64,000 nt of DNA from Saccharomonospora piscinae. Its GTDB lineage: Bacteria > Actinomycetota > Actinomycetes > Mycobacteriales > Pseudonocardiaceae. Below the pieces are notes generated by a model, which searched no databases, had not been told where the DNA came from, and was given only the letters and a program-made list of their open reading frames with translations. Below, piece by piece: positions 8,377-40,450 of the stretch; the stretch's first letter is position 1, and each line of letters starts with the position of its first letter. Location of the stretch: contig NZ_VCEK01000001.1 in the NCBI RefSeq assembly GCF_005862235.1, positions 1,054,001 through 1,118,000 on the forward strand, written 5' to 3'. A program made the translations under genes and the position numbers.

Positions 8377-9402
8377 TCAGCCGAAGAACACCTCGGCCTC
8401 GGCGTACCGCTCCGGCGGCACCGTCTTCAGCTCCGCGGTGGCCTCCGCCAGCTTCACGCGCACGATGTCGGTCCCCCGCAGGGCCACCATCACCCCGGCG
8501 TCCCCCTCGGCCACGGCGTCGACGGCGTGCAGGCCGAACCGCGTGGCGAGCACCCGGTCGTACGCGGTCGGGGTGCCGCCGCGCTGCGTGTGCCCGAGCA
8601 CCACCGCGCGGGACTCCTTGCCGGTCCGCGTGGCGATCTCGTCGGCCAGCCACGTACCGACCCCGCCCAGCCGGACGTGCCCGAACGCGTCCTTCTCCCC
8701 TGCCTGGAGCACCTCGGCGCCGCCTTCGGGCACGGCGCCCTCCGCGACCACGATGATCGGCGCGTACTCGCGCTCGAACCGCCGTTCGACCCACTCGATG
8801 ACCTGGTCCACCGAGAACGGGCGCTCGGGCACGAGCACGACGCTCGCACCGCCGGCCATGCCCGAGTGCAGCGCGATCCAGCCCGCGTGGCGGCCCATCA
8901 CCTCGACGACGAGCGCCCTGTGGTGCGACTCGGCCGTGGTGTGCAGCCGGTCGATCGCCTCGGTGGCGATGTGGACGGCGGTGTCGAACCCGAAGGTGTA
9001 ATCGGTGGCACCCAGGTCGTTGTCGATCGTCTTCGGCACCCCGACGACCTTCACGCCGTCGTCGGTGAGCCGCTTCGCCACTCCCAGCGTGTCCTCCCCG
9101 CCGATGGCCACGAGGGCGTCGATGCCCTTCTCGGCCAGGACACGCTTGATCGCGTCGACCCCGCCGTCCTCCTTGTACGGGTTGGTACGGGAGGAACCGA
9201 GGATCGTGCCGCCCCGGGTGAGGATGCCCTCGACGTCGTCGCGGGTGAGCCACGAGCCCTCACCGGTCAGGGGGCCGCGCCAGCCGTTGCGGAAACCGAA
9301 GATCTCCCAGCCGTGCGTCGCGATGCCCTTGAGGACGACGGCACGGATCACCGCGTTGAGGCCGGGGCAGTCGCCACCGCCGGTCAGCACACCGACTCGC
9401 AT
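8377..9402 (-). CDS. pfkA: 6-phosphofructokinase, probably PPi-dependent by active-site residues
   Basis: A 341-aa PFK-A family enzyme phosphorylating fructose 6-phosphate. Motifs: GVLTGGGDCPGLN, the PKTIDND catalytic block (Asp127), MGRHAGWIALHSG, GHTQRGG. At the donor-discriminating positions it has Asp104 (GGEDT) and Lys124 (PKTIDND). Asp104/Lys124 is the pattern of PPi-dependent PFK, including the Amycolatopsis methanolica enzyme; ATP enzymes have Gly104. Two tandem ATGs (9405, 9402) follow GAAAGG; the second gives the usual MRVGV start and 8 nt spacing. Divergent from the DAHP synthase leader. Confidence 0.93.
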   Translation of the reverse strand: MRVGVLTGGGDCPGLNAVIRAVVLKGIATHGWEIFGFRNGWRGPLTGEGSWLTRDDVEGILTRGGTILGSSRTNPYKEDGGVDAIKRVLAEKGIDALVAIGGEDTLGVAKRLTDDGVKVVGVPKTIDNDLGATDYTFGFDTAVHIATEAIDRLHTTAESHHRALVVEVMGRHAGWIALHSGMAGGASVVLVPERPFSVDQVIEWVERRFEREYAPIIVVAEGAVPEGGAEVLQAGEKDAFGHVRLGGVGTWLADEIATRTGKESRAVVLGHTQRGGTPTAYDRVLATRFGLHAVDAVAEGDAGVMVALRGTDIVRVKLAEATAELKTVPPERYAEAEVFFG

Positions 9403-9489
9403 CATCAGCGCCTTTCAGTTGTCCTGCGTCACACTTTCGTCGCCAGCGTAGTACCCAACACTCTTGATCGGTGCAGCGACGCCGCCTGC

Positions 9490-9495
9490 TAGAGT
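9490..9495 (+). promoter_or_regulatory. Extended -10 promoter TGCTAGAGT of the aromatic leader/DAHP synthase
   Basis: TAGAGT at 9490-9495 is preceded by TGC, an extended -10, with TTGATC at 9464-9469 as a loosely spaced (20 nt) -35. The leader GTG lies 7 nt downstream, so transcription should begin on or next to the first codon. Confidence 0.55.
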
Positions 9496-9502
9496 GTCCG
9501 CC

Positions 9503-9574
9503 GTGCAGCGCGAACGCTCGTTCTGGTTTAGCGGGCCGGCCCGGGGTGGGCCGGTCGGCGAGACCCTGCGCTGA
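9503..9574 (+). CDS. Phe-Trp-Phe leader peptide of DAHP synthase (23 aa)
   Basis: A GTG-initiated 23-codon frame ending in TGA at 9572. It contains the consecutive aromatic codons TTC TGG TTT (SFWFSG) and lies 93 nt before the DAHP synthase ATG. There is no Shine-Dalgarno; the -10 TAGAGT is 7 nt upstream, as for a leaderless start. Sensing charged tRNA-Phe or tRNA-Trp by a stalled ribosome would fit transcription attenuation of the first shikimate step. An aroF leader attenuator is known in Corynebacterium glutamicum (aroR); homology to it is not claimed. Confidence 0.6.
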   Translation: MQRERSFWFSGPARGGPVGETLR

Positions 9575-9612
9575 CCGACCTGACACCTCGAGCCGGACGA
9601 CGAGCCGGCTCG
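9553..9612 (+). promoter_or_regulatory. Candidate attenuator hairpins after the aromatic leader peptide
   Basis: GGTCGG (9553-9558) can pair with CCGACC (9575-9580), enclosing the end of the leader frame. CGAGCCGG (9589-9596) pairs with CCGGCTCG (9605-9612) over an 8-nt loop. The second stem has no T-tract, so it could be a terminator of the actinomycete kind or mask the DAHP synthase ribosome site further down. Which pair excludes which was not computed. Confidence 0.4.
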
Positions 9613-9667
9613 ACGGCGGCGCACCGGGTTGCACGGGCGGCGAGGCGGCTTGCGGAAAGGACATCCC

Positions 9668-10771
9668 ATGCCGCACGACCCCGCGAGCACACTGGCCGCG
9701 GCCGACCCGATCACCGCGCTGGACGACCGGCGCACCACCCGCATGAGCCCACTGCTCTCGCCCGCGCTTCTGCGGGCAGAGCACCCCGTCGACCGCGCCG
9801 TCGCCGAGACGGTCACGCTCGGCAGGCGCGACACCGTGGACATCCTGGACGGCCGGGACGACCGCCTGCTCGTGCTGGTCGGCCCGTGCTCGGTCCACGA
9901 CACCGACGCGGCACGGCACTACGCCCGGCTGCTGGCCGAGCACGCCGAGCGGGTGCGCGACGATCTCCACATCGTCATGCGGGTGTACTTCGAGAAGCCG
10001 CGCACCACGCTCGGGTGGAAGGGCCTCATCAACGACCCTGGGCTCGACGGGACCTACGCCGTGAACGACGGGCTCCGGCTGGCCCGGCGGCTGCTGCTGG
10101 ACATCTCGGCGCTCGGGCTGCCGGTGGGCTCCGAGTTCCTCGACCCGATCACGCCGCAGTACCTCGCCGACACCGTCACGTGGGGCTCCATCGGTGCGCG
10201 CACGGCGGCGAGCCAGGTGCACCGGCAACTGTGCAGCGCGCTGTCGATGCCGGTGGGAGTCAAGAACTCGACCGAGGGCGACGTGCAGGTGGCCGTGGAC
10301 GCCGTCCGGGCGGCGGGCGCGAGCCACGTGTTCCCCGGGATCAACCCCGACGGTCTCGCGGCGCTGGTGACGACCTCCGGCAACCCGGACTGCCACGTCA
10401 TTCTCCGGGGCAGCGCCTCGGGCCCGAACCACGACGCGGGGACGGTGGCGAGCACGCTGGCGCGGTTGCGCGAAGCGGGCCTGCCCGAGCGAGTCGTCGT
10501 CGACGCCAGCCACGGCAACAGCCGCAAGGACCACGTGCGGCAGGCCGCCGTGGTCCGCGAACTCGCCGCCCGCGTAGCGGACGGCGAACGCGGTGTCACG
10601 GGGCTGATGCTGGAGAGCTTCCTGGAGGCGGGCCGCCAGGACCTCACCCTCGGACGCCGCGAAGACCTCGACTACGGCCGCAGCATCACCGACGCCTGCC
10701 TCGACTGGCCCACGACCGCGACCCTCCTCGACGAGCTGGCGGCTGCCGTGCGTGCGCGCCGGGGGGCGTGA
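9668..10771 (+). CDS. aroG: 3-deoxy-7-phosphoheptulonate (DAHP) synthase, class I
   Basis: A 367-aa class I (AroF/G/H-type) enzyme condensing PEP and erythrose 4-phosphate, the entry to aromatic amino acid synthesis. Motifs: LLVLVGPCSVHD, MRVYFEKPRTTLGWKG, GSEFLDPITPQY, IGARTAASQVHR, GVKNSTEGD and the metal-binding VDASHGNS. Mycobacteria use a class II enzyme at the corresponding place, so the class differs. The ATG at 9668 follows GGAAAGGAC; the 13 upstream codons of the longer frame overlap the leader region and are rejected. Expression is probably governed by the Phe-Trp-Phe leader. Confidence 0.95.
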   Translation: MPHDPASTLAAADPITALDDRRTTRMSPLLSPALLRAEHPVDRAVAETVTLGRRDTVDILDGRDDRLLVLVGPCSVHDTDAARHYARLLAEHAERVRDDLHIVMRVYFEKPRTTLGWKGLINDPGLDGTYAVNDGLRLARRLLLDISALGLPVGSEFLDPITPQYLADTVTWGSIGARTAASQVHRQLCSALSMPVGVKNSTEGDVQVAVDAVRAAGASHVFPGINPDGLAALVTTSGNPDCHVILRGSASGPNHDAGTVASTLARLREAGLPERVVVDASHGNSRKDHVRQAAVVRELAARVADGERGVTGLMLESFLEAGRQDLTLGRREDLDYGRSITDACLDWPTTATLLDELAAAVRARRGA

Positions 10772-40230: not shown

Positions 40231-40450
40231 TAGCGTGGCGGTACACGAGAAAGGAGGTGGTCCGACGGTGAATATCCACAGGACTCGTGAGGTGGCTGTC
40301 CACTGACAGCGCACACGGGCCGACCAGAAGCCTTGTGTGCCTGCCGGTGAATACCAGGCAGTCACCGGCCTCCAGTGCTCCCGGGACCCGGTCCGACCCG
40401 GGCCCGAACGGCTGACGACGTTCGGGAGCCGCACTGGGGGCTTCCCTTAC
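40231..40450 (+). ncRNA. Structured transcript candidate with micro-ORF between nei2 and pyrD
   Basis: This 318-nt gene-free stretch (40181-40498) has a promoter (TTGCCG 40207-40212, 18 nt, TAGCGT 40231-40236), a very strong Shine-Dalgarno (40249-40263) with a 12-codon frame, and then structure: GCTGTC-CACT-GACAGC enclosing the frame's stop; GCACAC/GTGTGC; TGCCTG and CAGGCA interleaved with CCGGTGA and TCACCGG (pseudoknot or alternatives); and CCCGAACG/CGTTCGGG. No known riboswitch is recognised. It may be a pyrD regulator or a separate small RNA, because pyrD appears to have its own promoter. Confidence 0.4.
40268..40306 (+). CDS. Micro-ORF of 12 codons with near-perfect anti-16S ribosome site
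   Basis: GTG to TGA, encoding MNIHRTREVAVH. Its Shine-Dalgarno (40249-40263, GAAAGGAGGTGGTCC) matches the complement of the 16S rRNA 3' tail over 15 nt with a single G that can still pair as G-U, far stronger than any other ribosome site in the window. The stop codon is inside a 6-bp hairpin. It is far too short for an enzyme and may serve as a leader peptide. Confidence 0.4.
   Translation: MNIHRTREVAVH

Follow-up and report, generated by a model that had tools for sequence, protein, structure and literature searches.

An aroR-type leader of an actinobacterial type I DAHP synthase gene and its proposed action as a ribosome-mediated attenuator

In the trpL and pheL leaders of Escherichia coli, which carry Shine-Dalgarno sites and end with intrinsic terminators, ribosome stalling at regulatory codons selects between alternative RNA helices. 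In translational attenuators of the erm type, a ribosome stalled in the leader exposes a Shine-Dalgarno site further downstream by way of alternative helices, in response to an antibiotic, not to tRNA charging. The aroF gene of Corynebacterium glutamicum is preceded by the leader aroR with the residues Phe-Tyr-Phe (PMC4046766, available part). According to the accessible text of PMC11802643, which also names the trpL and pheL attenuators, aroF transcription rises via aroR on limitation of Phe, not of Tyr. Eight leaders of Streptomyces lividans precede leuS, leuA, trpE, trpS, alaS, ilvBHC, metNIQ and thrS (PMC8079986, partial text). Conserved structures upstream of genes of other amino-acid pathways were not found by Seliverstov in 2005, as stated in PMC1262725 (partial text).

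Leader locus and its aromatic codons

The window (the whole stretch of 64,000 nucleotides that was analysed) carries a type I DAHP synthase gene (aroG/aroF) at 9668-10771 on the plus strand (Pfam DAHP_synth_1, E 2.3e-80; TIGR00034 aroFGH, E 7.2e-141). The leader lies in the intergenic space between this gene and a divergent minus-strand ORF (8377-9405), which we take from its sequence to be phosphofructokinase-like. A short ORF with aromatic codons is thereby located directly 5' of a type I DAHP synthase, as in an aroR-type leader. The GTG frame at 9503-9574, the codons TTC TGG TTT at 9521-9529 and the extended -10 element 7 nt before the GTG, all described in an earlier note on this DNA, were present in the sequence, as were the bases of its two stems (9553-9558/9575-9580 and 9589-9596/9605-9612). 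The features of the locus were as follows.

9487-9495, plus strand: extended -10 promoter element TGCTAGAGT; TAGAGT ends at 9495, 7 nt before the GTG
9503-9574, plus strand: leader peptide ORF with GTG start, 23 codons, VQRERSFWFSGPARGGPVGETLR and stop (contains RSFWF); homologues in relatives
9521-9529, plus strand: regulatory codons TTC TGG TTT (Phe-Trp-Phe); TTT invariant in the 43-row alignment A1
9536-9549, plus strand: segment 1, partner of segment 2 or segment 3
9548-9554, plus strand: segment 2, 3' arm of hairpin 1:2
9584-9596, plus strand: segment 3 (CACCTCGAGCCGG)
9589-9612, plus strand: hairpin 3:4 (9589-9596/9605-9612), with no U-tract after it
9601-9611, plus strand: segment 4, complementary also to segment 5 at 10 of 11 positions
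9642-9652, plus strand: segment 5, immediately 5' of the Shine-Dalgarno sequence
9645-9674, plus strand: hairpin 5:6 around the Shine-Dalgarno sequence and ATG; outer pairs 9645-9656/9664-9674
9654-9661, plus strand: Shine-Dalgarno sequence GGAAAGGA, recognised by sequence
9668-10771, plus strand: DAHP synthase, the regulated gene in the proposal (Pfam, TIGR00034)

Comparison with upstream regions of relatives, which had been put forward as a check, returned a homologous leader at 113 of 141 regions before type I DAHP synthases, the window included (112 of 140 distinct regions, locus L105 being the same record as L002). The regions comprised 31 named loci, with the leader in 27, and 110 places in the host family, the window's own among them, with the leader in 86. 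Of 80 named loci, 31 were read; the remainder were 48 from other phyla and L060, a Bifidobacteriaceae bin. The enzyme was present in 124 of 200 host-family genomes, and the 110 places were obtained by leaving out lower-scoring second copies and fragments. In a second family (that of genome G260), the leader was found in 20 of 20 genomes from 19 genera; these were taken from 101 genomes with the enzyme, genus g193 was represented twice, and L270 was the same record as L006. An RNA model constructed from the window and its relatives gave one match in the host genome, the leader itself (E 3.9e-13); the next match (E 2.7) was this site read on the other strand. Counts across whole genomes with model R1, obtained with strict filters, were at least 39 of 150 and at least 39 of 246. 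Judged by sequence comparison, the leader is more than chance.

No Rfam family matched the leader above the gathering score in the window or in 16 relatives. Elsewhere in the window, at 40243-40447 on the plus strand, RF02471 (Ms_IGR-5, an actinobacterial small RNA) was matched with 93.9 bits. The host genome also encodes a class II DAHP synthase, and no such leader was present in the 500 nt scanned upstream of it. Its apparent start (L275, around position 1420) was seen by eye to lie 7 nt after TATGCT; this mRNA may itself be leaderless.

The leader was absent from four of the 31 named loci (L010, L012, L021 and L033) and from 24 of the 110 host-family places. By eye, L012 has a GTG start and a WYWRF run, and CGCTTACC replaces the usual CGCTGACC around the stop, so that the frame stays open. 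Three of the 24 host-family places belong to genus g25 (L134, L135, L139; enzyme 69-74% identical). The enzymes of the remaining 21 are at most 60% identical and represent, perhaps, a different group of DAHP synthases. The three g25 loci have no aromatic leader ORF, yet hairpin 3:4 and a segment-5-like stretch are retained by eye; in L134 an alternative frame rich in Ile, Leu and Val was noticed, also by eye.

The position of the promoter was highly regular. In all 107 leaders found by peptide alone, the start codon lay 6-8 nt after TANNNT, a spacing shared by only 9 of 1582 other ATG or GTG codons of the same regions. Among the 113 leaders the gap was 7 nt in 86, 6 nt in 25 and 8 nt in 2, and the TGn extension of the -10 element was present in 71. 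A -35 element was looked for in the 113 leaders and seen in only 10. Two leaders with extra N-terminal codons (L095, L120) still start 7 nt after the -10 element. The spacing is strong but indirect evidence that the transcript of the window is leaderless and starts at the G of GTG 9503. The earlier note had called such a leaderless leader a distinctive variant; this description was dropped, as the trpE, leuA, leuS and ilvB leaders of S. lividans had already been reported to be leaderless (PMC8079986, partial text).

The leader search required an aromatic run, not all three aromatic residues. Tyr, Phe and Trp were nevertheless all present in 109 of 113 leaders, in 108 of them within the first 18 residues (in L095, Trp is residue 19). 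The exceptions were the window, L094 and L098, which lack Tyr, and L014, which lacks Phe. The expected conservation of aromatic codons was therefore borne out, mostly as Tyr/Phe/Trp, and the Tyr-less Phe-Trp-Phe of the window turned out to be unlike most relatives. The order of the aromatic residues was shuffled among leaders (YFWF, YWRF, WYRF, YPWF, YRWF, YWWF). Codon counts in the 113 leaders were 112 TTT to 72 TTC and 94 TAT to 30 TAC, as against 3 TTT to 319 TTC and 2 TAT to 272 TAC in the coding sequences of the enzyme at 57 of the loci. The leaders thus appear to favour codons that are avoided by the enzyme genes, as expected for slow, charging-sensitive decoding; an alternative reason for the preference would be the low pairing strength of TTT and TAT. 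Among the matches listed for the model, 12 of the 24 read were DAHP synthase leaders from other families with Tyr and Phe and no Trp, which indicates that Trp is not universal in the leaders.

In 4 of the 24 loci read, among the matches listed, the match did not precede a DAHP synthase gene. In G550 the leader is followed by a stand-alone chorismate mutase, matched by CM_2 over its first 79 residues (E 1.1e-9). In G382, G412, G345 and G527 a chorismate mutase is joined to a partial DAHP-synthase-like domain that scores below the NCBIfam cut-offs; the genes of G470 and G479 were assigned by N-terminal likeness only, beginning like those of G382 and G345, respectively. Six of these leaders were read (YFGF in G550, CFAF in G382, SFAF in G470, YSSF in G412, G345 and G479). 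All six contain Phe and no Trp, and the rest of the element was recognisable. Chorismate mutase belongs to the branch towards Phe and Tyr, not to that towards Trp; the leader codons therefore follow the pathway. The hosts of these leaders, with genomes of 7-9 Mb, are guessed to be Streptomycetaceae. Chorismate mutases joined to a partial DAHP-synthase-like domain were noted at L250, L251, L252 and L253 in large actinomycete genomes, at the first three of these with a Trp-less aroR-type leader in front.

Alternative RNA helices

Both stems of the earlier note were examined in 43 rows. The stem 9589-9596/9605-9612, here hairpin 3:4, was conserved (98% paired for seven pairs, 87% for the innermost eighth). 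The stem 9553-9558/9575-9580 was only 58% paired, did not covary beyond shuffles and was rejected. The covariation predicted for the two stems did not appear, a joint shuffle test showing no excess. The conserved alternatives were instead 9536-9542/9548-9554 (hairpin 1:2) and 9536-9548/9584-9596 (helix 1:3). Hairpin 1:2 was 93% paired and did not covary; like 3:4 it is nearly invariant in the 43 rows and gives no covariation signal. RNAalifold applied to the full leader returned conserved helices only, with no compensatory change. In two mycobacterial loci (L045, L048), hairpin 1:2 was seen by eye to be longer by about 10 pairs, through the TTT codon.

In the window, helix 1:3 consists of the pairs 9536-9540/9592-9596 and 9542-9548/9584-9590. 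It was counted on a right-anchored register, because MAFFT misaligns the spacer before segment 3. The set of 65 rows excluded near-identical sequences (e.g. L048, L044); 64 of them were counted, L058 being left out (segment 1 unrecognised) and L148 kept with its segment 1 in the wrong register. In the variable part, segment 1, which takes in the loop of hairpin 1:2, was complementary to segment 3 in 73% of cells, against a row-permuted mean of 62%. Cells changed on both sides numbered 49, against at most 22 in slid registers, and the observed values were reached in 0 of 500 row permutations; like the permutation counts given below, this number ignores the kinship of the rows and is not a probability. 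Cognate 1:3 duplexes were more stable than permuted ones (-27.5 versus -23.0 kcal/mol, 0 of 2000 permutations, 65 rows).

The downstream helices were tested in 39 of the 43 rows of A1, those with no insert between segments 3 and 4. Helix 4:5 was paired in 87% of cells against a row-permuted mean of 80%, the paired fraction being inflated by the choice of the best-fitting register of segment 5 in each row. Here 42 cells were changed on both sides (at most 12 in slid registers; 0 of 1000 permutations), and duplex energies were -19.1 versus -16.3 kcal/mol (0 of 2000). For 5:6, formed by segment 5 and the stretch from the Shine-Dalgarno sequence to the start codon and tested with L140 omitted, cognate pairs reached -13.8 versus -12.1 kcal/mol (0 of 5000 permutations); compared with shuffled spacers, z fell below -1 in 25 of 38. 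In the window, 9645-9656 pairs with 9664-9674 across the ATG. Downstream of the regulatory codons, 1:2 and 1:3 are therefore mutually exclusive, as are 1:3 and 3:4; the helix hiding the Shine-Dalgarno site (5:6) competes with the upstream helix 4:5, and both covary.

Proposed mechanism and rival explanations

The proposal of the earlier note, a leaderless aromatic leader peptide acting as a ribosome-mediated attenuator, is strongly supported at the sequence level by conservation, codon choice and covariation. We consider the whole explanation, an aroR-type attenuator with leaderless leader peptide, alternative helices and translational output, to be probable. Taken separately, the attenuator itself is very likely and the sensing of codons likely. 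An output at translation initiation is slightly favoured and is the most uncertain step, set against, for example, Rho-dependent termination. The following scheme starts from what was computed: the leader ORF, its distance from the promoter element, the conservation of the codons and the covariation of 1:3, 4:5 and 5:6.

RNA polymerase would start at the G of GTG 9503, and the ribosome would load directly on that 5' end. With plentiful charged tRNA-Phe and tRNA-Trp, the ribosome would reach the stop codon at 9572 and cover the 5' part of segment 3. Helix 1:3 would be blocked, 3:4 would form, and segment 5 could pair across the Shine-Dalgarno sequence and ATG (5:6), so that DAHP synthase is switched off. 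Under shortage of Phe or Trp, the ribosome would stall at 9521-9529 and block or open hairpin 1:2, and segment 1 would pair with segment 3. Segment 4 would then be left for segment 5 (4:5), and the Shine-Dalgarno sequence would be free. What we reconstruct in this scheme is where transcription starts, that the ribosome stalls, in which order the helices fold and which way the switch works.

To represent the ribosome, its footprint was masked while 64 partial transcripts, each reaching as far as segment 3, were folded. Helix 1:3 exceeded 0.4 in all 64 when the ribosome was stalled at Trp and in 23 when it stood at the stop codon, which in this model is the expected direction of the switch. Three results stood against it: 1:3 already exceeded 0.4 in 41 of the 64 with no ribosome, it stayed at 0.71-0.84 with the ribosome at the stop in L014, L017 and L045 (terminator lineages), and its mean was 0.47 with a stall at the last aromatic codon, versus 0.76 at Trp. 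At equilibrium no switch was obtained in the accessibility of the Shine-Dalgarno sequence (0.49 with a stall at TTT, 0.51 one codon before, 0.47 at the stop); it was higher with the TTT stall than at the stop in 21 of 39 only. Nor did the balance of 3:4 and 4:5 switch at equilibrium: whatever the ribosome state, 3:4 was ahead by a mean of 6-9 kcal/mol. The mean shift of this balance by a stall at Trp was only 1.4 and went the expected way in 24 of 39, and a stall at TTT shifted it the wrong way (8.6 versus 7.7 at the stop). The relay would therefore need kinetic control.

The same leader and sensing could act by premature termination of transcription, either at 3:4 despite its missing U-tract or through Rho on the untranslated stretch after the leader stop. 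Such an output would be in line with relatives in other lineages, where a U-tract hairpin directly follows segment 3; a simple scan detected terminator-like sites in 21 of 113 leaders, with L005 and L117 doubtful and with weak U-tract hairpins missed (e.g. L011, L014). These terminators occur in Mycobacterium, Micromonospora, Kribbella and some loci of the host family, and aroR of C. glutamicum is described as acting on transcription (PMC11802643, accessible text). In the window, however, no intrinsic terminator with a U-tract and no terminator-like site was present at 9400-9720. Of the mode of attenuation foreseen earlier, the alternative helices thus stood, and the output is probably not classical transcription termination. 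Moreover, 4:5 and 5:6 covary beside the Shine-Dalgarno sequence and would be unneeded for termination at 3:4. A copy of segment 4 with 7 or more matching bases comes after the U-tract in 8 of 19 terminator loci and is absent in 11, and where a degenerate insert separates segments 3 and 4 the arms of 3:4 are intact in 6 of 6 loci. This suggests that the terminator was lost while 3:4 was kept, and 3:4 would therefore have a job other than termination. Termination in the window is regarded as rather unlikely; the covariation of helices from the leader to the Shine-Dalgarno region argues for an output that probably lies in the initiation of translation.

A TnaC-like arrest peptide, responding to free aromatic amino acids and not to tRNA charging, would account for the conservation of the peptide over long distances, including PA and often a terminal Arg. 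PA, however, stems from bases of segment 1 that must pair, the order of the aromatic residues changes, and Arg, Pro or Gln interrupt the run. Other residues replace Trp where the gene is chorismate mutase, and the strong bias to the rare codons TTT and TAT is unexpected for a peptide signal; this reading is very improbable. Equally improbable is that the form lacking a terminator is left over from an ancestral attenuator and no longer has a function. The absent U-tract terminator, the equilibrium model with no switch and the g25 loci that lack an aromatic leader ORF (L134, L135, L139) would agree with a relic. Against it, 1:3 and 4:5 covary, and the TTT, CGGCCC and GAGCCG columns are invariant across 43 diverged rows; selection has therefore continued.

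Relation to described attenuators

Taken together, the leaderless leader would drive mutually exclusive helices (1:2 or 1:3, 3:4 or 4:5, 5:6), and through them the charging state of tRNA-Phe and tRNA-Trp would be passed on, across about 130 nt, to the DAHP synthase Shine-Dalgarno site. This relay would have been born by loss of a U-tract terminator between segments 3 and 4, with degenerate-insert intermediates surviving, and a Trp-less form would control chorismate mutase in some large actinomycete genomes. To this joint reading we give even chances. The comparison makes aroR one member of an element spread through the Actinobacteria and offers a case in which stepwise change seems to have turned a transcription attenuator into a translational one. 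The leaders could be read as a table of the aromatic amino acids sensed in each lineage (Tyr, Phe and Trp; Phe and Trp; Phe and Tyr), Trp being absent at chorismate mutase. Many actinomycete antibiotics are made by pathways that DAHP synthase supplies, and the element is therefore also a practical target in producer strains.

Two loci judged, in part by the N-terminus of the enzyme, to be Corynebacterium (L255, L256) carry RFYF leaders (MRMWRFYFSKAPEAETS, MRNWRFYFEWGSGR) 7 nt after the -10 element, with a U-tract hairpin. They fit the Phe-Tyr-Phe reported for C. glutamicum aroF (PMC4046766, available part). Homology to the Corynebacterium leader (place, -10 spacing, aromatic run) was traced via Rhodococcus, Mycobacterium, Dietzia and Corynebacterium-like loci, C. 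glutamicum itself being compared by description. In the literature covered, seen partly and with most subscription journals outside the coverage, no DAHP synthase leader outside Corynebacterium and no chorismate mutase leader of Streptomyces was found, nor a report of the spread of aroR, of its terminator-less form or of its chorismate mutase form. The aroR kind of leader is known; its spread through the Actinobacteria and its apparent rewiring to hide a ribosome-binding site look new.

With E. coli trpL and pheL, the proposal shares the choice of alternative helices by a stalled ribosome; the window differs in its predicted leaderless start, in sensing several amino acids and in having no U-tract. 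As in the erm type, the Shine-Dalgarno site would be freed by a stall in the leader, but the signal would be tRNA charging instead of an antibiotic. The S. lividans leaders resemble that of the window in being leaderless short ORFs before amino-acid genes, some with no typical U-tract terminator; in the available text of PMC8079986, none of them precedes DAHP synthase or chorismate mutase, and no relay to a ribosome-binding site is described. Like aroR of C. glutamicum, the window has a leader peptide before a type I DAHP synthase; it differs from aroR by its Phe-Trp-Phe codons, by the absence of a U-tract terminator and by the extra helices that extend to the Shine-Dalgarno sequence.
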